Source: Candidatus Rifleibacterium amylolyticum
GTDB taxonomy: Bacteria; Muiribacteriota; Ozemobacteria; Ozemobacterales; Ozemobacteraceae
Direction: 5' to 3'
Assembly: GCA_009917695.1 (NCBI GenBank)
Contig: JAACJG010000013.1
Coordinates: forward strand, 62,001 to 126,000
DNA: 64,000 nt
Of this stretch, positions 26,982 through 61,565 are shown in pieces; the stretch's first letter is position 1; each line of letters starts with the position of its first letter. The notes beneath the pieces were generated by a model. The model saw only the letters and a program-made list of their open reading frames with translations, was not told where the DNA came from and did no database searches. Made by a program: the position numbers and the translations under genes.

Positions 26982-27641
26982 TCAATCAATAAGATTGGCA
27001 CGGCCAAGGGTGTCGCGAATCTTGACACAGCGTTTGAGAAAGTCTTCTTTGCCCTTAACGTTCAGATATAAAGTATCTTGCAGGAACTGTTGTTCGAGAA
27101 GACCCATCGTCTCCATCATCTCGATGATTCCGGTGACTTCTTTGGTTTCAACGAGAAACGCCTGGCTTGCCGTCTTTACCAGACTGTCATATCTGATCAT
27201 CGACAGGGCCGAATTATATTTAACTCCGGCAATCGTATATTGTGCCAGCAGATCGATCATGTGAGCAATACCCATGAACAAATCAGGCGTCTTGCCAAGT
27301 CTTTCGGTAGTTGTGCGCAGCCTGTGAACCAGTGCAGTCAGCGCAACCCCGATCAATTTAGGCGACTTTTCGAGAAACTCATCGAAATCCTGTTTCGAAA
27401 TAACTGCGACCTTCGAATCTGAGCGGGCCACAGCAGTTGCCGTGCGCTTCTGGTCTTTCAAAACCAGCGCCATTTCACCAAACACAGACACCGGTTTGAA
27501 CACAGTGACGACCTTCTTCTTGTCGCCGCTGCCAACGGTTATTTCTACGCTTCCTTCGGTCAGAATGAAAGCGACATTGCCCGGTTCCCCTTCCTGAAAA
27601 ATAACTGAACCGCTGCTGTAGTCTCTCATCCAGGATTTCAT
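26982..27641 (-). CDS. Cyclic-nucleotide-binding domain protein
   Basis: 219 aa. Residues about 8-110 form a CNB domain: SSGSVIFQEGEPGN, VEITVGSG and a phosphate-binding cassette FGEMALVLKDQKRTATA with the Glu and Arg that hold the cyclic phosphate. The C-terminal 100 residues are helical with no obvious CRP-type recognition helix, although a degenerate winged helix cannot be excluded. Binding of cAMP or cGMP is predicted from the cassette. It is monocistronic. The cyclase receptors at 55772-61565 are a possible source of its ligand. Confidence 0.82.
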   Translation of the reverse strand: MKSWMRDYSSGSVIFQEGEPGNVAFILTEGSVEITVGSGDKKKVVTVFKPVSVFGEMALVLKDQKRTATAVARSDSKVAVISKQDFDEFLEKSPKLIGVALTALVHRLRTTTERLGKTPDLFMGIAHMIDLLAQYTIAGVKYNSALSMIRYDSLVKTASQAFLVETKEVTGIIEMMETMGLLEQQFLQDTLYLNVKGKEDFLKRCVKIRDTLGRANLID

Positions 27642-49038: not shown

Positions 49039-51984
49039 TCAGCTTCTTTTGATTAGAATCACAGTCTGATCATCAGATTGAGATTCCGCCCATTCATTGT
49101 GATTTTTCAGCAAGGTCTGGAGAAAGCGGTCGACGTCAACATGCCAGCTTGTCGCAAGCATCTGTTGCAAGCCCTGGTAACCGAGAACCTGGCGCTTTTT
49201 ACCTGCCGCCTCGGCAAATCCGTCAGTATGTAAACACAGGGTTTCGCCGGGGTTCAGTTGTATAGTCACTGGCTGATTGAATTCTGGCGAATTATAGCCG
49301 AGTGGAAGCCCGCCAGACTTGACCAGTGCTGAAACCTTACCAGCTGCGTCGATTATGACCGGCATGCAATGGCCTCGATTGATCAACTGGCACCTGCCTG
49401 TTTCTGGTTCGGCCATAAAGAACAATCCGGTCATGTATTCGCGGGTACCGCTTTTGCGGTTAAGAAACACGGTCTGATCTATGGCATCGGCAAGTTTTCG
49501 CATGTCGGTAAAGTTGGCTTTTTCATCGATCATTGTCGCCTTGGCCATTGCCATTATCAGTGCAGCAGAAATTCCGTGTCCTGAAACATCGCCGATAAAG
49601 ACCAGAAGCTGGTTCTCAACTGTAAAAAAATCGTAATAGTCGCCGCCAATGCGCGAGAATGGCTGAGAAAAAGCAACCAGCCTTATATCACCAACGTTGG
49701 CCTCTCCTGGCGGAAAAAGGCTCTCCTGCACGATCCTTGCTGTCTCAAGATCTTTGAAAGTCTCGAGCGTCGCATTGAATGTCTGCGACAACTCGCTGAA
49801 TTCGAGACTTGAATCAATTGCCAGGCGATAAGAAAAATCACGACGGCCAATAGAACTTATCGCATTTTGAATTTCGCCAACCGGAGCGAGAAAATGACTC
49901 GCCAGATACCTGAACATCATGAAGGTGAGCAGAAGAAACATACCGGCAACGGCGGCCATCTGCCAACCAAGTTTTCCAATCAGCTCTTCCATATGCCTGA
50001 CCGGCAGCATGTAAAGCAGACTGATCTGATCCATATTCAGACCTCGCATGCCAACGGCGGTATAATCGCCTGCTGAGAGAGAAAGGTTCCCTTTTCTGAT
50101 GATCTGGTTGTTGTAAGCATACTGGCCTAATGCCTTCAGATTGTCGCGATCGGTATGCTCGCACGAAATCAGGTCATCACTGGGGTAATAAGCAATGATC
50201 TCTGCGCCGGCAGACATGTTTTCGGCGAGATTTGCGGCATGAAAACGCTCAAAAAAGCTGCGCTGCAGGTTTTCCTTGCGCCAGTAAAGCTGGAGCATGG
50301 CAAGATTCTGATACTTCTCAGGAATGCCGAGAAATTCAAAATAAAAATACAACTCATGCGCGCCAAGGCCAATGAAAGAAATCTCTTTTTTCTTCGACAC
50401 AACGTTGACACCGAGCTGGTCGGTCACAATGAAAGATCTGCCAGTATCTTTTCCAACACTTCGGCTCAATGAATGCAGTATTTCCATGGCCAGCTGACTG
50501 GCTAAAGTGTAATCAGAAAAAATAGTGCGCCGGTTATCTGCAACAAGGTTCTGCCCGGTATGATTGTATAATTGAATTGATTCTGGCCGATAATCGCCCA
50601 TCAATTCGGCACGCAGCTGCTTCAGCGTTGGCGACTGCAGAATCTCCAGCCCGAATCTTTTATTGTACCCATTGATCAGCTCGCTCAGGTGCGTTGCATG
50701 ATCTTCGAGAAAAATCTTAAAATTTCTGTCAATGCCATAAAGCACATTTATACCACGGGTCTGCGCCTCATAAACGAGCTGCTGACGCTTCTGCTCAAGA
50801 TATTCGAGACCTATACTGCCCATTATCAATAAGGGAATACCGCCGGCATATAGAAAGATGACGGTCAGCTTGAGCCTGATCGAAACGAAGCCGGACCAGC
50901 GGGTTTTATACCAGACCATCAGCAGAAACAGCAGAGGCAGAAGCACTTTTGCGAAACTGCCAAAATAGTGAAGCCTCTCGCGTTGCTCAGAAAAAAGCAG
51001 ATCTGAAGAGCAGTAACACACAGCCCGCTGGCTTTGCCCTACCATCATGCAGCCAACCAGAATATCTGAAAATTCTTCAAAATCAGCGACGCTCATGCTC
51101 TCAAAACGGCTCAGAGCCTGCACCAGCTTTGGCGCCAGCGCTGCGTCAGCTGGCGGAAAAAAATCCTCTGAGGCCGGGTAATCGGTCAGATGAACCTTGA
51201 AATCCGGCATGTCACGGCGAACAAGATTCAGCGCGTATTCGCTGCCTGCTGAACTCTGAATGAATTCGTCGTTGATAAAACACAAAAAGCCAAATGCATC
51301 ATTGATACGATACCAGATCCGGCTTCTCGGGCCAGGCGGTGAAGTTTGCAGTGGCTTTCCCTGCTGGCCGCTCATCCAGGGATAGCGCAACTGGTAGATT
51401 ACCATCAGCTTGCCGAGAAAATTGCGCAGAATTTTAGCTTCCTTCTCTACGTCGCCAAGCGTTACCAGGCTTACCTCATCACTATTTTCCTCCCATTTAC
51501 CAAGCAATTCAGAGGCCCGCTTCAAGAAATGGTAGGTTTTTCTGATGATGTAACCAAAAGAGGTTTCGTCTGAAACTTCTTTAACCAGATCGCCTCTGGC
51601 GTTCCAGTAAACAAAAGTGAAAGCGCCAGGATATCGGCTTTGCAGCTGTTTTTTTAACGTGCCAAAAGTTTTCTCTGGCTGGCGCGATGCAAGTGCCCGC
51701 CGATTTATCTCAAGCAGCAGATAATGGGAAAAATACTCATTGTCACTGAATTTTTCGACGGTTTTCAGAGCATGTTCCATTTTGCCGGCAATTTCTTCAC
51801 GATTATTCGCTGACCTGATTCTGAAAAGCTGATCAAGCCCCAGATTTATCAGACCGGCCGGGAACAGCACGAAGCAGAGAAGTATTCCCAGCCACGAAAC
51901 CAGCGGGAACCTCTGAAAATATCCTTGAAACGAACTCTTGTCTGACATCGCCATCAATTTAACACAGACATGATTTATCAACAA
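49039..51984 (-). CDS. Membrane receptor with HAMP and SpoIIE/RsbU-type PP2C phosphatase
   Basis: Up to 981 aa; the exact start is uncertain (TTG 51984, or ATG codons some 10-13 codons further in). The layout matches the downstream paralogue: first membrane segment, extracytoplasmic domain of about 300 residues, two membrane segments (SIRLKLTVIFLYAGGIPLLI), a second extracytoplasmic domain, last membrane segment, and HAMP (RRDFSYRLAI). The phosphatase has GGDYYDFF, GDVSGHG, HTDGFAE and SDDQTV, all metal ligands present. The extracytoplasmic regions share little with the paralogue, so the two probably respond to different signals but act on related targets. Confidence 0.88.
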   Translation of the reverse strand: MLINHVCVKLMAMSDKSSFQGYFQRFPLVSWLGILLCFVLFPAGLINLGLDQLFRIRSANNREEIAGKMEHALKTVEKFSDNEYFSHYLLLEINRRALASRQPEKTFGTLKKQLQSRYPGAFTFVYWNARGDLVKEVSDETSFGYIIRKTYHFLKRASELLGKWEENSDEVSLVTLGDVEKEAKILRNFLGKLMVIYQLRYPWMSGQQGKPLQTSPPGPRSRIWYRINDAFGFLCFINDEFIQSSAGSEYALNLVRRDMPDFKVHLTDYPASEDFFPPADAALAPKLVQALSRFESMSVADFEEFSDILVGCMMVGQSQRAVCYCSSDLLFSEQRERLHYFGSFAKVLLPLLFLLMVWYKTRWSGFVSIRLKLTVIFLYAGGIPLLIMGSIGLEYLEQKRQQLVYEAQTRGINVLYGIDRNFKIFLEDHATHLSELINGYNKRFGLEILQSPTLKQLRAELMGDYRPESIQLYNHTGQNLVADNRRTIFSDYTLASQLAMEILHSLSRSVGKDTGRSFIVTDQLGVNVVSKKKEISFIGLGAHELYFYFEFLGIPEKYQNLAMLQLYWRKENLQRSFFERFHAANLAENMSAGAEIIAYYPSDDLISCEHTDRDNLKALGQYAYNNQIIRKGNLSLSAGDYTAVGMRGLNMDQISLLYMLPVRHMEELIGKLGWQMAAVAGMFLLLTFMMFRYLASHFLAPVGEIQNAISSIGRRDFSYRLAIDSSLEFSELSQTFNATLETFKDLETARIVQESLFPPGEANVGDIRLVAFSQPFSRIGGDYYDFFTVENQLLVFIGDVSGHGISAALIMAMAKATMIDEKANFTDMRKLADAIDQTVFLNRKSGTREYMTGLFFMAEPETGRCQLINRGHCMPVIIDAAGKVSALVKSGGLPLGYNSPEFNQPVTIQLNPGETLCLHTDGFAEAAGKKRQVLGYQGLQQMLATSWHVDVDRFLQTLLKNHNEWAESQSDDQTVILIKRS

Positions 51985-53197: not shown

Positions 53198-54544
53198 ATG
53201 TTCGATTTTCCCCAAGGTTTTTACTCAGACGTGCGTATTGAAAGGATTTATCGCTCTCTGGTACGCATAGAAATGGGAAAGCTTGAAGAAGTTAAAGAAA
53301 AATCCGACTCAGGTGCTTTCATCCGACTCTATGACGGAAAACGCTGGTATTACGCATCTACCACCGACACCGCATCGATCAATCAGGAACTGGCGCAGCT
53401 GGCCAGGCTGGCCGACAAGCCAGACGAACAGGCAATCAGCCGACTGACCAGCCGAATGGAAAAGAACCTCGGCGATTTTTGCAGATTTGCCGACCAGTCA
53501 GTCGCAAAAACAGGTCTTAAAGACAAAATTTCGCTGCTCGAATCTTATGCCGGTCTCGTGCAGAACGACCAGGAAATCACGCACTGGTCGGCCTCTTACA
53601 GCGACAGCCATATCAGCAAAGATTTCTATTCCAGCCTGACAAAAGCTGACACCGGATTGAAATTTGACACCCAGACCGCCGGGTTGAGGCTTGGCGTGCG
53701 TTTCGGCAGCGGGGCCAACGTCTTCAGCGAAACCTGGTGCAAGGCCGAAACCGGCTTTGATCAGTTAAAACAGCTGCATGCTGAAGCGAAAAAATACATC
53801 GAACAGGCGCGCGACTACTTTCACCGTGCCGAAAGCATCGAAGGGGGAGTTTATACCGTTGTTCTCTCGTCGCTGGCAGCAGGCATTTTTGCGCACGAGA
53901 GCTTCGGTCACAAAAGCGAAGCCGACTTTATGATCGGTGATACAGCCATGCTCAAAGAATGGCAGCTTGGCAAAAAGGTTGGCTCTGAACAGCTGAGCAT
54001 AATCGACGACGGCAATCTTGCCGGCAGCGGCTTCACTCCGTTCGACGACGAAGGCACCGGTGCAAAGCGAACGGCACTGATCGAGAAGGGCATTCTGAGT
54101 GGTCGCCTGCACAGCAGCATTACCGCAGCCGATCTCGGTGAAGCAGTGACCGGGAACGCCCGTTCCATCGGCTTCGAATTCGAGCCGATAGTGCGCATGA
54201 CCGCGACTTTTATCGAACCGGGCGAACTCAGCAAAGATGAGCTCTTCGCCGGCGTCAGCCGCGGAATATTTATCGATTCGGTCAAGCACGGGTCGGGCAT
54301 GTCGACCTTTACGCTGGCGCCATCTATGGCTTATCTGATTGAAGATGGCAGGATCACCAGGCCGGTGCGGTTTTCGGTAATCACCGGCAATGTAATGCAG
54401 ACTCTCGACCACATCGATGCGGTATCGGACAAGCTTGAGATATTGAGCTTCGTTGGTGGTGGCTGTGGCAAGATGGAACAATTCCCGCTCCCGGTCAGTT
54501 TTGGCGGCCCCTATGTGCGGGTCAGGCAGATTAACGTTCAATAG
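53198..54544 (+). CDS. tldD: TldD-family metalloprotease
   Basis: 448 aa. The zinc motif is HESFGH (His233, Glu234, His238). Downstream ITGNVMQTLDHIDAV, GSGMSTFTLAPS and the cysteine-containing GGCGKMEQFPLPVSFGGPYVR are typical of TldD. TldD works with TldE as a heterodimer that degrades unfolded or modified peptides, for example in microcin or RiPP maturation and CcdA turnover. GGAG precedes the ATG. It is followed by tldE and two cyclase genes in one operon, an unusual association. Confidence 0.92.
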   Translation: MFDFPQGFYSDVRIERIYRSLVRIEMGKLEEVKEKSDSGAFIRLYDGKRWYYASTTDTASINQELAQLARLADKPDEQAISRLTSRMEKNLGDFCRFADQSVAKTGLKDKISLLESYAGLVQNDQEITHWSASYSDSHISKDFYSSLTKADTGLKFDTQTAGLRLGVRFGSGANVFSETWCKAETGFDQLKQLHAEAKKYIEQARDYFHRAESIEGGVYTVVLSSLAAGIFAHESFGHKSEADFMIGDTAMLKEWQLGKKVGSEQLSIIDDGNLAGSGFTPFDDEGTGAKRTALIEKGILSGRLHSSITAADLGEAVTGNARSIGFEFEPIVRMTATFIEPGELSKDELFAGVSRGIFIDSVKHGSGMSTFTLAPSMAYLIEDGRITRPVRFSVITGNVMQTLDHIDAVSDKLEILSFVGGGCGKMEQFPLPVSFGGPYVRVRQINVQ

Positions 54545-54554
54545 GAGGCCAGAT

Positions 54555-55775
54555 ATGCGCGAAAAAATAGTTCAACAGGTGAAACAGACATCCTTGAGTA
54601 TAGTTCAGAACTCGATCAGCGCGATCAGGCGCAAGAACATACAAAAGACCGGCTGCCGGGTGATCAAAAACAACAAAATCGGCGTAGCCGGCGGACTTGG
54701 CAAGGTGAAGGATGAAGAGCTTTTTGCCCGTGCCGAAAACGCACTCGAATACGGAGTCGAATACCCGGTAGAGATCAGCAGTAACCGGCAACTACAGGAT
54801 CGTCTGAATGAATTGAGCCTCGATGACTCGCAAATTTGCGCGGCGGTCGAGCATGTGCTCGACGAACTCAAACGGCGACACCCTGATTTTGCGGTAAGCA
54901 ACAAGGTCAATTACAGTAATGCCAGCCTCAGGCTGACGAACGATGCCGGGCTTTCTCTAAGTCACAGTGACAGTTATATCAGCTGGAGCTTTGCGCTCAA
55001 AAGCAGTTCTTCGACCGGTATCATGGACACCTTTTTCGGAATCGTCGATCGCAAACTCGAGCCAGAAAAGGTTATTGAGGCGACTTCGGCCATCATCAAC
55101 GCCTATAACAATAAAATCGAACTGCCCGCAGGCGAACTGCCGGTGATCATTCACCAGTCGGCTTTGACCAGGCTTTTTCAGCGTGACCTCAACGGCAAAA
55201 TTGTCGGCAACAAGGCTTCGTTGCTGCAACAGAAGTTCGGCCAGAAAGTTTTTGCCGACAACTTCAGCGTGGAGATAGCGAATGACCCGGTTGAGACTTT
55301 CAGCCCACGCTTTGACAGCGAAGGCGCCATCTGCGAAGACAGTCTGCGCTGGCTGATTAAAGACGGCGTTATTCTGCGCCCTTACACCGACAAAAGAACG
55401 GCGCTGCGTTACGGCTTCGACCATACCGCCTGCGGCGAAGGCGGCTACGACAGCGTACCCTCGCTCGCCGGCTGCAACATGGAAATACAACATTCCGGCA
55501 AAACTCTGCCCGACCTCCTGCCAGAGGGCCACGGCATATTGATTGCAATTGCCAGTGGTGGTGACTTTACGCCCGACGGCAAATTCGCAACCCCGGTGCA
55601 GGTCTCTTATCTGACCGACGGTGTTAAGCTGCTGGGACGGCTGCCGGAACTCACCATAAAAGGCTCGCTGTTCGACTTTTTCGGTAGAGATTTTATCGGA
55701 GTAAGCTCTGACAAGCTTTATTTGAGCGGAAACGAACGCATGCTCGTCACTCGACTGGCTGCGCAAAAACTTTGA
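54555..55775 (+). CDS. tldE: TldE/PmbA-family partner of TldD
   Basis: 406 aa from ATG 54555, which has AGGAGG seven bases upstream; an upstream in-frame start would lie inside tldD. SNKVNYSNASLRLTNDAG and a C-terminal SGGDFTPDGKFATPVQVSYLTDG-type region (GDFTPDGKFATPVQ) fit the TldE/PmbA family, which lacks the HExxxH motif and supplies the non-catalytic half of the protease. It lies 10 bases after tldD, and its TGA overlaps the TTG start of the first cyclase gene. Confidence 0.9.
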   Translation: MREKIVQQVKQTSLSIVQNSISAIRRKNIQKTGCRVIKNNKIGVAGGLGKVKDEELFARAENALEYGVEYPVEISSNRQLQDRLNELSLDDSQICAAVEHVLDELKRRHPDFAVSNKVNYSNASLRLTNDAGLSLSHSDSYISWSFALKSSSSTGIMDTFFGIVDRKLEPEKVIEATSAIINAYNNKIELPAGELPVIIHQSALTRLFQRDLNGKIVGNKASLLQQKFGQKVFADNFSVEIANDPVETFSPRFDSEGAICEDSLRWLIKDGVILRPYTDKRTALRYGFDHTACGEGGYDSVPSLAGCNMEIQHSGKTLPDLLPEGHGILIAIASGGDFTPDGKFATPVQVSYLTDGVKLLGRLPELTIKGSLFDFFGRDFIGVSSDKLYLSGNERMLVTRLAAQKL

Positions 55776-58705
55776 GAGAACCTGGCAGAACAAGACTGTT
55801 TACCCTTCTGCTGGCCGGCCTGATCGTGCTGGCCGCACCTCTGTGTTTTTTCAACAATCTCATCGAAACTGCCATGCACCGCAGCGAAGACTCAGCGATG
55901 GGTCTGTTGCGCGAAAAACTGCTGCAGGAAAGTGAACGTGTCAAAGAACTGTTGACTCCAACGGCCTACGTCCGGGCAACGATCAAAAAAGCTCACGGTG
56001 AAATTCTGCCAGATGTATCGCAAAATCTCATAAAAATGAAGCCCGCGAAAGATTTCGGGGTCGACCTTTTCGATGAACGATTACCGTCAAAAATGCTGGA
56101 GGCTCTTTGCAGACTGCAGATGAAGCCTCTCTTCATAACCGTTGCCAGCCCGGATTTTTCACGGGTGCATTACTGGTATGCTGACGAACTGCACAAACAG
56201 TGCCCGGAACCAGACAATCTGGCGCGAGTGATGGCTTATGAACTCATGACTATCAGTTCGAGACTTTATCAGCAGTATTATCAAAAAGAATGGTCGATTT
56301 ACCGAATCACTCCAGGTCTGTTAAAGCTCGGTGAATACGGGTTTAATGTTTCAACCCCAATGAACTTCAAATACCTCAATCGCTACGGCGAAATCGTATT
56401 GCCTCACGACACAGTTCTCGAGAGATTCACCGACTATTTCGACAAACAAATGCTCTATTATTATGCCTACAACTGCCTGAGCAGCGTAAGTCTCCATGGC
56501 GGCTATAAAATTGGCGTATTGCAGAACAGCATCGTTCCACGAGAAGTGTTGCGAACAGCTTTAGCATCTGGCTCAAGCGAAATCGAAGCCAGACTGGTTC
56601 GTCTGCACGAAAAGCAATCTGGTTTTTACATAAACGGGAAAACTGTCGACTTTTTCGACAGACCTCCGACCAGCTTCTGGAGCCATTTATCCTTCTATAG
56701 AAGAACTCTTGGCCAGAAAAGTCTGTCAGATCCAGGCAGTTACCATCTACGCCTGCGGGCACCACTCCCTCAAGAAATCATCAACTTTAGAAGAAGTCTG
56801 CAGATTTTTCGCATCATTGCAGGTGCCATGCTGCTTTTTTATGCAATGACCGCCGTATATATCTGGCTGTTCGGATTCAGTCTGCAGTCAAGCATTAGAC
56901 AGAAACTGATTCTACTGCTGGCCGGCATTATTTTTATTCCGGTCGTCGGCTCTGGACTGCTTGCTGTTATCAGCCTTAAGGGCTCAGATCGTGTCATCGA
57001 AAATCACGTTATGGAAAAAACCCGTGAACTGCTCAGGGAGTTCATGCAATATGATGACGAAAATGACAATCGTCTGCAGCTGGCGACTCTTGAAACCAAG
57101 CGTCGTTTCGAAGAATACCAGGGGAAAAGGCTCGATCCGGAAGCAATGCTCTCACGGCCCTACGACGATCTTTTATGGATGCGAAAGTTGAGCGGGCAAC
57201 AAAGCATACTGTTCCAGGATGGCCAAATCATACATTATTCTTCGGCCCTGCAGATTCTGCAAAGAGATTCGCATAAGCTGATCAACATCATACTGCCCAA
57301 ATTTTTTGCAAACCTCGGACTGTTGAACAAACAGGGAAACGCATTTTCGCAAACCCTTGCGCTTGGTCTTTCAGAAGACTACATAACTCCGGAGCGCGAG
57401 GCATCGCGGCTGCCACACGAAAGCACCCTGCAACAGGAAATCTCACACACTCTTGACACCAGTCGCGCATCTATCATCGTCACGCAGACAAAAAAAGGCT
57501 ATTACCTCTTCGCTTTTCCCAGGGCCAACGATGGCGATCTCAATTCTCACGAATACCTCAGCAGATTTTCGCTGCATTCTCAGAAGTGGTTTGCAAAATC
57601 TGATCCCTATTGCGACATAGAACTGGGAGCGAGAACCCGCAGGCACTTCAATGAATCGCTTTATGCGTGGCCTTCCAGTTCATTATTGAACCCGGAAATG
57701 CAGGAAATTTTCAGATGGATAAACGAGCTCAAAGATTCCGGCAGCCGCATCGTTCACGAGAACGACAGGATCAAAACAAACGCGTGGAACATCAGACCAC
57801 ATCGACCGACCATATTAGCTGCCATTGGCCAGAGTCGCAGCAAAGGCATCGGACAGTTCGCCATCAGCATGATATTTCCTGTCTTAGCCGGTTACGCAAT
57901 CCTGCTGGTAATGGTATTATCACTGCTTTTCGCTGAGTTCATAATCAAACCGGTCAATATATTTTCTGAGGGCATTCAAAAGCTCAGTAACGAAGAGTAT
58001 GGCATCATTATCGACAAATTTTCCAACGATGAATTCAGTCTGATGACCTCGGCCTTCAATAAAATGTCAGCAGCTCTGCGTCAACGCGAAATGATCAAAC
58101 GCCTGGTTTCAGAAAAACTGATCGAGCAGGTAGAAAAATCAGACAAGGCTGAGAAAAATAGGACCGAAGAAGTCGAAATAAGCGTTGTCGCTTCTGACAT
58201 CAGAGGATTCACCAGTATAAGTGAGAAGTTTTCACCTTCAGAAGTTGTCGAACTGCTCAACAACTACTTCACCGCCATGGAAAAAGCCATAAGTGAGAAT
58301 CATGGCGTCATCGACAAATACATCGGCGATGCAATCCAGGCTGTGTTCTATGAAAAGCAGGGACTGGCGAAACCCGCCGAGAGAGCCTGTGCTTCAGCAT
58401 TGGCGATGCGCAGACAACTGCAGCAGCTCAATAAGCGGCGGGCAGAGGAAGGTTTTTTTCCACTCGAAAACGGCATCGGCATTGCAACCGGCCGCGCAGT
58501 ATCAGGAAGCATTGGCAGTGAAAACGGGCGAAAGGATTTTACAATAGTCGGCAGAATCACCGAGCAGGCCGCCAATCTGGAGTCTGCTACAATAAATGTC
58601 GAAAGCCGGATACTGTTATGCAACAACACAAAGACGGCGGTTGCTGAGACATTTTCATGCTCGGGCCATGATTCGAACAGCTGGGAGCTGAAAGATGGCA
58701 GCTGA
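55772..58705 (+). CDS. Membrane receptor with class III cyclase domain, C1-like (metal-binding half)
   Basis: 977 aa, starting at TTG 55772 within the tldE stop. Architecture: membrane segment (about 9-29), extracytoplasmic domain, two membrane segments (about 348-368 and 380-400), second extracytoplasmic domain, membrane segment (about 697-722), HAMP, cyclase domain (about 795-960). Both metal aspartates are present: Asp809 in ASDIRGFTSISE and Asp853 in DKYIGDAI; the substrate Lys849 and Thr924 (DFTIVG) are also kept. The usual VNLAAR motif reads TEQAAN, so the transition-state Asn is Glu931 and the Arg is Asn935. A homodimer should therefore be inactive. The next gene supplies the missing residues. 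Confidence 0.85.
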   Translation: MREPGRTRLFTLLLAGLIVLAAPLCFFNNLIETAMHRSEDSAMGLLREKLLQESERVKELLTPTAYVRATIKKAHGEILPDVSQNLIKMKPAKDFGVDLFDERLPSKMLEALCRLQMKPLFITVASPDFSRVHYWYADELHKQCPEPDNLARVMAYELMTISSRLYQQYYQKEWSIYRITPGLLKLGEYGFNVSTPMNFKYLNRYGEIVLPHDTVLERFTDYFDKQMLYYYAYNCLSSVSLHGGYKIGVLQNSIVPREVLRTALASGSSEIEARLVRLHEKQSGFYINGKTVDFFDRPPTSFWSHLSFYRRTLGQKSLSDPGSYHLRLRAPLPQEIINFRRSLQIFRIIAGAMLLFYAMTAVYIWLFGFSLQSSIRQKLILLLAGIIFIPVVGSGLLAVISLKGSDRVIENHVMEKTRELLREFMQYDDENDNRLQLATLETKRRFEEYQGKRLDPEAMLSRPYDDLLWMRKLSGQQSILFQDGQIIHYSSALQILQRDSHKLINIILPKFFANLGLLNKQGNAFSQTLALGLSEDYITPEREASRLPHESTLQQEISHTLDTSRASIIVTQTKKGYYLFAFPRANDGDLNSHEYLSRFSLHSQKWFAKSDPYCDIELGARTRRHFNESLYAWPSSSLLNPEMQEIFRWINELKDSGSRIVHENDRIKTNAWNIRPHRPTILAAIGQSRSKGIGQFAISMIFPVLAGYAILLVMVLSLLFAEFIIKPVNIFSEGIQKLSNEEYGIIIDKFSNDEFSLMTSAFNKMSAALRQREMIKRLVSEKLIEQVEKSDKAEKNRTEEVEISVVASDIRGFTSISEKFSPSEVVELLNNYFTAMEKAISENHGVIDKYIGDAIQAVFYEKQGLAKPAERACASALAMRRQLQQLNKRRAEEGFFPLENGIGIATGRAVSGSIGSENGRKDFTIVGRITEQAANLESATINVESRILLCNNTKTAVAETFSCSGHDSNSWELKDGS

Positions 58706-61565
58706 ATCATCAGGAAGAATCAGCAAATCGATTGAGTTTTCAGCCGTCACAATTATCTGTGCATGGCTTCTGGTTCTCGTAATCCCGGTAGCAGGCTCGC
58801 TGCTGGCAATAGACCGTTTTCTCGCAGAATATGAACTTTTCGCAGCGCCTGGCGAGATGGAAAGAGCCTGCCAGAAGATAGAAGAATGCCGCGACCTGCT
58901 GGTGACCGAAAATTTTCTCACTTCACGACAGAACGCCCTTGAAAACATAGCTCTTCCGACAGACGCACAAAATCTCGATGAACTGCACAAGCATTTTGAC
59001 CATGCCATTGCTGGCAGGTCACTGATGCTGGTGCTGTTCAATGAAGATGGAAGCAGGCTGATGATACGCAAATACAGCCCGCCAGACCTGAACCGGCGCA
59101 TGCCTCCTTCTGCCCTTTTCCGCAAACAGGTGCAGACGCTGATAAAATACAACTACCTTTCACAACCTGATTCAGAACCATCAGAAGATCCAGAAGCGCT
59201 TCGCAATGCCATGCAGCTGCAACAGATGTTCAAAACCATCGCTCCTGTGTTCATAGTGCCCGGCCAGGCAGTAAAGAGCTATTCGGTCGAATTCGGCGGT
59301 GAATTGTATTTTCTCTGGGTCGAATTCAAAACGCCACAGGCCGGACAGAAAGGGGGACTCGCTGTAGTAAGGGGCCGCGACCTTTCGTGGAAAACGAGAT
59401 TTCAGGATATAAGAAAGAAATATCCCGATTTTCGACTGGTTCTGAAAAAACAGAATATTATGAAGGCAATCGAGAACCCTGACAGTTTTTATACCGGGGT
59501 GCGAAAAGTAAATGGAGATGTGATAATCACGACTTCAGCCGACCAGAGATTCATCAGAAGCTGGTTACACAACAGCGGTATTTTGCTTAACCAGAAAAAT
59601 GCTGACTTCAATATTCCTTTCATCGAATACCGTATTGATCAGAAGAGTTTTCAACATGGCTGGCAGAATATTCGCAGGCATCTTGGCCTGGCTGCGAAAA
59701 TACTGATTATGCTGTCGCTGATTCAACTGATTCATATGCTCTTATTTGGCATCAATCTCGATATAAGCTTCAAGCGACGAATTCTGGCCAGCGTAATAAT
59801 GGTATCGCTGTTCCCCTATGCATTTCTAAGTATTGGATTCTACCTGCATCAACAGTATGATGAATTTCTGGCACGCCTCAACATGCTGCAGCATATTGAG
59901 ATCAGAATGGCTCAAACCACCAATGAGCTGAAGCAGTATCTGGAAAGCATCGAAAGCTCATTCATATACTACGCAAAAAAAATCGATCGTCGGATGATTG
60001 ACGACGACGCGGCTCTTCATCGTCTTTTCAAAGAAATAGGCCAGAATCTTCCGATATCGGCAGTCGCAGTTCATCGCCCTAAGAATACTGTTTCAGTTGA
60101 CTTTCCTGATCGAATATCACCAGGAAGCCTTAACAGCACGATATCATTCATCGAGCGCTTTGCCCCAAGACGATCCCTTGAACTGATGATGGAACCAATG
60201 CCTGTGACGAACAGAATTCGGCAGGACATGATATTCGTAGCCGGGAACATGGTTAAGAATTCTTCAATAGCAGAAAGCATGCGCTCAAATGGACAGTTTT
60301 ACTACGTCGATCAGACCCAGAACGTGATCTGGTATTCTACCGCCAAGATCTATGACGAAAGTGATCCTGCAATGCCTTTTATCGGTCTTCTCGGCAGCAA
60401 ATTCGAAGCTGGACCGGTGATGAAAGCTTATCTTTCGCGAACCTCACTTGCGAAAAACGGCTTTACCGAAAATTATGGCAGGTATTCGATAAAGTATGCA
60501 TTTCTGCCGACGCAACGAACAGGCACCAGAAGAATATGGAGCGGCAGCGGCTATAAAAATGAGCCTTTGATAAAACGGGCCGCAAAGGATGAAAGCTCAA
60601 ATATGACCGGCGAAACTGACAGCAGTGGCAATGTCAGCTATCTGATCAGCCGATATAATCATAATTTTCCGCATATAGCCATTGCCATGGCGACCTCAGA
60701 CAGCTCGCAGACTGGTTACCTGCAGGCACTTGGCGGGCTGTTCGCCTATCTCTGCCTTGTATTTTATCTGGTCAGCCAGCTGCTCGAAAGGTTCTTTGTT
60801 GCTCCTGTGATGCAGCTGGCAAAAAGTGCTGAGCAGATCGCCCGCGGGGGCGATGCCTGGAGCCTGCAGCTGAAAACCGGCGACGAATTTGAACGATTGA
60901 ACGACTCGTTCACAGAACTGGTCGTCGGCCTGCAGCAGCGCAACATGTTGCGCGACTATGTTTCTGAAGACGCCATCTCAGAGATCGAAGCGGCTGAGAC
61001 CAGAGACATGGCGCCGGGTGGCGAATACCTCGAAGCTACGATAATTTTCGCCGCCATCAGAAATTATTCTGAGCTCACTGCCGGCTTTACACCGGAACAG
61101 ACAGTTGAGCTGATCAACCGGTTCATTACCTGCGGCGATCGGCTGGTAAAGCAGTATGGCGGCACTATCGACAAGATCATCGACAATACTCTGATGCTGG
61201 TGTTTCGCGACAGCGAGAAACAGGAAGAGTCACACGCTTTGCGCGCAGTCAAAACTGCGCTGGCGCTGGCAGCCGAAATGCATCAGGAGAATCTCGACAT
61301 TTATGCCGGCATCGCTTCGGGGACGGTAATTTCTGGCAGAATCGGCTCTTACAGCGGCAAACTCGACTACACCGTCATCGGCGACCAGGTCAATCTTGCC
61401 GCAAGACTCAAGAATGAAGCAGTAGAAAGCAGTAGCGGCCTTATCATTTCAGGTTCGACCATGCGCATGCTCAAAGGCAAAGGGCGCGTGAACTTTTTGC
61501 GACGTTGCTCGCTCAAGGGCAAATCACGCGAATACAATATCTACGAGCTTTACGAACTGCGCTGA
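58695..61565 (+). CDS. Membrane receptor with class III cyclase domain, C2-like (transition-state half)
   Basis: 956 aa; ATG 58695 lies after GGGAG and overlaps the previous gene by 11 bases. The architecture mirrors the upstream gene: membrane segments near 16-36, 333-352, 362-382 and 675-697, then HAMP and a cyclase domain at about 770-955. The metal aspartates are both replaced: FAAIRNYS has Ala787, and DKIIDNTL has Asn831. The substrate Lys827 and Thr893 (DYTVIG), and the transition-state Asn900 and Arg904 (VNLAAR), are all retained. It therefore looks like the C2 partner of the preceding C1-like chain. The terminal stop is followed by a dispersed repeat. Confidence 0.87.
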   Translation: MAAESSGRISKSIEFSAVTIICAWLLVLVIPVAGSLLAIDRFLAEYELFAAPGEMERACQKIEECRDLLVTENFLTSRQNALENIALPTDAQNLDELHKHFDHAIAGRSLMLVLFNEDGSRLMIRKYSPPDLNRRMPPSALFRKQVQTLIKYNYLSQPDSEPSEDPEALRNAMQLQQMFKTIAPVFIVPGQAVKSYSVEFGGELYFLWVEFKTPQAGQKGGLAVVRGRDLSWKTRFQDIRKKYPDFRLVLKKQNIMKAIENPDSFYTGVRKVNGDVIITTSADQRFIRSWLHNSGILLNQKNADFNIPFIEYRIDQKSFQHGWQNIRRHLGLAAKILIMLSLIQLIHMLLFGINLDISFKRRILASVIMVSLFPYAFLSIGFYLHQQYDEFLARLNMLQHIEIRMAQTTNELKQYLESIESSFIYYAKKIDRRMIDDDAALHRLFKEIGQNLPISAVAVHRPKNTVSVDFPDRISPGSLNSTISFIERFAPRRSLELMMEPMPVTNRIRQDMIFVAGNMVKNSSIAESMRSNGQFYYVDQTQNVIWYSTAKIYDESDPAMPFIGLLGSKFEAGPVMKAYLSRTSLAKNGFTENYGRYSIKYAFLPTQRTGTRRIWSGSGYKNEPLIKRAAKDESSNMTGETDSSGNVSYLISRYNHNFPHIAIAMATSDSSQTGYLQALGGLFAYLCLVFYLVSQLLERFFVAPVMQLAKSAEQIARGGDAWSLQLKTGDEFERLNDSFTELVVGLQQRNMLRDYVSEDAISEIEAAETRDMAPGGEYLEATIIFAAIRNYSELTAGFTPEQTVELINRFITCGDRLVKQYGGTIDKIIDNTLMLVFRDSEKQEESHALRAVKTALALAAEMHQENLDIYAGIASGTVISGRIGSYSGKLDYTVIGDQVNLAARLKNEAVESSSGLIISGSTMRMLKGKGRVNFLRRCSLKGKSREYNIYELYELR

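Follow-up and report, generated by a model that had tools for sequence, protein, structure and literature searches.

Bacterial class III cyclases have been described as homodimers that carry all catalytic residues on one chain (PMC4174876, PMC9552081), and CyaC, CyaB, and Rv1625c are bacterial homodimers. The C1/C2 pseudoheterodimer of the mammalian membrane adenylyl cyclases has one active site and one pseudo-site (PMC4174876), and the duplication and fusion behind this type of cyclase have been placed in an early eukaryote (PMC4174876, PMC9552081). A heterodimer is also formed in soluble guanylate cyclase, whose alpha and beta chains are homologous and separately encoded (PMC3591389). The latter enzyme is eukaryotic, soluble, regulated by haem and NO, and guanylyl-specific.

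Here, we describe two adjacent receptor genes in a stretch of 64,000 nucleotides from Candidatus Rifleibacterium amylolyticum, the whole of which is referred to as the window. The two receptors, named A (metal-donor receptor) and B (substrate-donor receptor), share the catalytic fold and motifs of CyaC, CyaB, and Rv1625c, but each of them holds only half of the residues. As in the mammalian C1/C2 cyclases, the metal-binding Asp residues lie on one domain and the substrate and transition-state residues on the other, and the single-chain layout of the mammalian enzymes is matched by eight fused A-B chains. However, the A/B pairs are bacterial and mostly encoded by two separate genes, they are two-module HAMP receptors with four predicted transmembrane (TM) segments per chain instead of hexahelical membrane domains, and they have Thr, not Asp, at the second substrate position. 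Moreover, all A/B pairs come from one bacterial lineage and reflect a full-length duplication, which is consistent with an independent origin. Thus, as far as the mechanism can be inferred from the sequence, the pairs are C1/C2-like, but they fall outside the mammalian family, since they do not have two hexahelical domains on one polypeptide. With soluble guanylate cyclase they share the two separately encoded homologous cyclase chains, but the sensor and substrate residues of that enzyme are unlike those of A and B. The open-access literature that we searched yielded no description of a heterodimeric class III cyclase from bacteria, nor of any cyclase of Riflebacteria, and although this does not prove that none exists, the A/B arrangement appears to be a class III cyclase variant that is new for bacteria.

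Results

Two overlapping genes encode receptors of the same layout

The features of the locus are listed in Table 1. The open reading frames, their coordinates, and their overlap of 11 bases, which had been claimed in an earlier note based on the DNA only, were all confirmed. The TTG start codon of A overlaps the stop codon of the tldE-like gene upstream. Chain A consists of a TM segment (residues 9-27), an extracytoplasmic module, two further TM segments (345-363 and 379-397), a second extracytoplasmic module, and a last TM segment (701-719), and its cytoplasmic end carries a HAMP domain (721-771) and a class III cyclase domain (approximately 802-964). In chain B, the TM segments are located at 20-38, 332-350, 363-381, and 676-694, the HAMP domain at approximately 698-747, and the class III cyclase domain at approximately 778-945. 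The predicted topology of both chains is therefore the same in outline: a TM segment, about 315 residues outside, two close TM segments, about 300 residues outside, a TM segment, HAMP, and cyclase. The membrane side of the modules is inferred, and they were assigned to the extracytoplasmic side because the output is cytoplasmic.

Table 1. Positions in the window of the A/B locus, its upstream genes, and the active-site residues.
Feature	Position	Strand	Remark
Two tldD/tldE-like metalloprotease genes	53198..55775	+	directly upstream of A
Gene A (metal-donor receptor)	55772..58705	+	977 aa; start codon TTG at 55772
Gene B (substrate-donor receptor)	58695..61565	+	956 aa; start codon ATG at 58695
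Overlap of gene A (3' end) with gene B (5' end)	58695..58705	+	11 bases
A, metal Asp809, motif SDIRGF	58196..58198	+	Asp in 97/97 A chains
A, metal Asp853, motif IDKYIGDA	58328..58330	+	Asp in 97/97 A chains
A, lost transition-state positions, with Glu931 in place of Asn and Asn935 in place of Arg	58562..58576	+	
B, Ala787 at the first lost metal site, motif FAAIRN	61053..61055	+	
B, substrate Lys827	61173..61175	+	
B, Asn831 at the second lost metal site	61185..61187	+	
B, Thr893, Asn900, and Arg904 (YTVIGDQVNLAARL)	61371..61406	+	invariant in 97/97 B chains
B, Lys941 of the LKGK hairpin	61515..61517	+	retained in B

The cyclase family PF00211 matched A with 56.2 bits and B with 65.1 bits (curated cut-off 21.9), and the HAMP match was weak in both window chains. 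Among 26 family members, HAMP preceded the cyclase domain in 13 of the 13 A chains and in 10 of the 13 B chains, and no Pfam sensor family was found in the outer modules, since only PF00211 and HAMP-type models matched. Structure models of A and B (mean pLDDT 80.5 and 78.6, respectively) kept the class III fold in both chains, and a Foldseek search with these models matched CyaC, CyaB, and Cya2, with a best target-normalised TM-score of about 0.8. The best 50 whole-chain Foldseek matches were cyclase-containing structures only and provided no identity for the sensor.

Each chain has lost catalytic residues that the other retains

Catalytic residues were placed by HMM alignment against the intact cyclases of the same genome and P. 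aeruginosa CyaB. Neither chain has all six catalytic residues, as A is without Asn and Arg, and B is without both metal Asp residues (Table 1). Since Lys849 and Thr924 are also retained in A, Asn and Arg are the only ones of the six that are gone from this chain. The C-terminal LKGK hairpin is absent from A of the window and from nearly all other A chains. The earlier note had listed which of these residues are kept and lost in either chain, and this list held residue by residue in the HMM alignment, with Lys and Thr of A as an addition. Misalignment as the cause of the missing ligands was ruled out, as the motifs align unambiguously and orthologues show the same losses.

The split is conserved in related genomes

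We fetched 80 regions from relatives, added loci found by name, and read the sites. The collection was made with A- or B-like profiles, so other kinds of pair would be under-sampled, and the residues of the partner played no part in choosing it. This gave 102 pairs, 97 of which were readable at all sites and were all of the A+B type; four others could not be read completely because of contig ends or fragments, and the remaining one, G038, is described below. The 97 pairs come from at least 25 genomes, with several loci of a genome counted as one, and these genomes belong to two families within the phylum. The pairs comprise paralogues and orthologues, perhaps 10-15 old lineages judging from the clade structure, and are not independent events. 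The gene order was A-B in 67 pairs and B-A in 30, and the open frames overlapped in 86 of the 89 unfused pairs.

Both metal Asp residues were present in every A chain, and Lys, Thr, Asn, and Arg in every B chain (97/97 each). When the sites of the possible dimers were compiled, a complete site was found in none of the 97 AA, BB, or reversed AB combinations, and in all 97 when the metals were taken from A and the rest from B. A chains never carry Asn and Arg together, and Lys is often kept. In B, the Lys or Arg of the LKGK hairpin was present in 95 of 97 chains, and one metal Asp was still there in 64 of 97, the first metal Asp being lost in most. Column variability gave the same picture: the metal columns of A are invariant, and the columns of its missing Asn and Arg are among the more variable ones (155th and 144th, respectively, out of 158), and in B the Lys, Thr, Asn, and Arg columns are invariant. 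Chance, or a sequencing error in one metagenome-assembled genome, was ruled out by the occurrence of the same split in relatives of two families.

Two loci with Riflebacteria-type A/B pairs, L112 and L114, are located on contigs labelled Erysipelotrichia and Candidatus Methylomirabilis. These labels are likely wrong, as the cyclase matches of the genomes equal those of genomes placed in the family of the window.

Multiple A/B units in one genome, some of them fused

The 5.39 Mb genome (G000) contains 61 PF00211 matches, 36 of which are arranged in 18 A/B units, namely 13 adjacent gene pairs and five fused open reading frames. The latter are single frames of about 2,000 residues with the A domain followed by the B domain. 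Including these five, eight in-frame A-B fusions were found, with approximately eight predicted TM segments per chain, corresponding to two whole receptors in tandem. Fused receptors of approximately 1,850-2,320 residues occur, for instance, at L161 and L162 (G027), L164 (G006), and L034, L035, and L044 (G000). Among the 25 unpaired cyclases of G000, 23 have all six residues or nearly so, thus the residue decay is specific to the pairs. A lone cyclase-like domain at L015 (C6:152394-152885) has Glu, Tyr, Asn, Asp, Arg, and Gln at the six sites and is, with nearly all catalytic residues replaced, likely a pseudo-cyclase.

The pairs go back to the duplication of a whole receptor

A tree built from 124 domains places the A domains in a single clade (support 99/96) and the B domains in either one group or two. 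The tree of A is mirrored by that of B: within G000, their distance matrices agree with a Mantel r of 0.74 for the catalytic parts and 0.91 for the sensor parts, and none of 5,000 permutations gave a value as high. Alignment of the A profile with the B profile spans 919 columns (E 6e-74), so the chains are homologous over their full length, and paralogues among the pairs share only 33-39% identity in the cyclase domain. The single A clade, the mirrored trees, and the full-length homology together indicate that a whole receptor was duplicated, that the copies divided one site between them, and that the pair then multiplied as a unit. Sequence comparison further suggests that the A-B fusions are later than the duplication of the pairs and arose once or a few times. 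It is likely, again by inference from the sequence, that the split arose independently of animal C1/C2.

The pair of G038 (L156, 2439-5267 and 5271-8030, minus strand) belongs to another family and has one chain with all six residues. In the partner chain, the second metal Asp is replaced by Gly, and a metal residue is lost in this chain only. This pair was rejected as a refuting case for the A/B split, as it forms its own clade (100/100) among the homodimeric cyclases, outside A and B. It therefore represents an independent and milder case, and possibly resembles a separate, early step towards asymmetry.

Gene neighbourhood and possible effectors

The same order, tldD-tldE-A-B, is seen at orthologous loci in several other genera, with 48-80% identity (L106, L107, L108, L110, L111, L097, L101, and L114), which suggests an operon and a functional link of the peptidase pair to the receptor. 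In most of the tldDE-linked orthologues, Glu recurs at the Asn position of A.

Another receptor in the window (49039-51984, minus strand, 981 residues) has the same TM layout and HAMP, with a SpoIIE/PP2C phosphatase as output. A relationship to the A profile is detectable in its central TM segment, so several outputs may share a common receptor scaffold. The genome encodes 19 cNMP-binding domains as possible receivers of a cyclase signal. One of them belongs to a CRP-like protein in the window (26982-27641, minus strand), a candidate effector of the cyclases.

Discussion

The split of the catalytic residues, its conservation, the linkage and fusion of the genes, and the co-evolution of A and B are established by these data. 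From this we infer that A and B very likely combine, as its two subunits, into an obligate heterodimeric class III cyclase receptor with one composite site, which probably makes cAMP. Heterodimerisation, activity, product, and ligand sensing are all inferences, with neither an experiment nor a heterodimer model behind them, and without a structure of the complex the physical heterodimer is supported indirectly, by the fusions and the mirrored trees. In the proposed mechanism, the two cyclase domains would pair head to tail, with A supplying the two metal Asp residues and B supplying Lys, Thr, Asn, Arg, and the Lys of LKGK, so that the dimer would have one complete and one dead site. Signals perceived by either chain would be relayed by a HAMP coiled coil to which both A and B contribute, and would determine the cyclase output. 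The purine-specifying positions of B are Lys and Thr in 97 of 97 chains, which we take to be the class IIIb adenylyl-type signature, and this pair would point to ATP as substrate and cAMP as product, which is suggestive but not decisive.

The earlier note had predicted a heterodimer with exactly one complete site, and at the level of the sequence this held for all 97 pairs; the fused chains and mirrored trees support it further. It had proposed checking whether homologues always occur as adjacent pairs with the same residue pattern, which they do, either adjacent or fused, and it would have been refuted by a homologous pair in which one chain has all six residues, which was not found among the pairs of the A and B clades. 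The claim that either chain would be inactive as a homodimer is nearly certain for B of the window, which has lost both metals, but only likely for A. In other class III cyclases, mutation of Asn or Arg can leave some residual activity. With one metal Asp left in many B chains, and Lys and Thr in A of the window, weak homodimer activity remains possible. The suggestion that the pseudo-site binds a regulator found no support, at least for a conserved one, because the pseudo-site columns drift freely and are mostly highly variable.

The alternative that survives best, although we consider it doubtful, is that A and B do form the heterodimer but that its product is cGMP or some other cyclic nucleotide, or that A and B swap between units. 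The Lys/Thr pair leaves room for the former and the presence of 18 A and 18 B chains in one genome for the latter. However, CyaB of P. aeruginosa, an adenylyl cyclase, has the same Lys/Thr pair, and the gene overlaps, the fused chains, and the mirrored trees all argue for pairing within a unit. A bolder version, which we regard as improbable, is that these chains form combinatorial receptors, in which each dimer would be a coincidence detector for two ligands, one per chain, fused units would be insulated, and exchange among separate units would widen the repertoire. Much weaker is the possibility that the role of B, as a pseudo-cyclase, is limited to regulating A, with A acting as a weak homodimer or with complete cyclases as partners, and that the retained residues are incidental. 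In its favour, A has both metals and often Lys, the first metal Asp is gone from most B chains, and regulatory pseudo-enzymes are common; however, a mere regulator would not need the Lys, Thr, Asn, and Arg found in every B chain, nor the nearly invariant Lys or Arg of LKGK, and no A chain has Asn together with Arg. That both chains are decaying pseudo-cyclases used for scaffolding or sensing without catalysis is highly unlikely, for although the losses in both chains are real and activity of the pair is only inferred, random loss would not leave the exact complementary set in 97 pairs with domains as diverged as these.

If A and B form the heterodimer that we favour, a C1/C2-like split seems to have evolved in a bacterial lineage as well, with the two halves encoded separately or fused into one chain, and to have been multiplied to 18 units in one genome. 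The A/B pairs would then provide a bacterial system for testing why cyclases become asymmetric and what a pseudo-site does, and they may also allow a test of how two receptor chains govern one active site.
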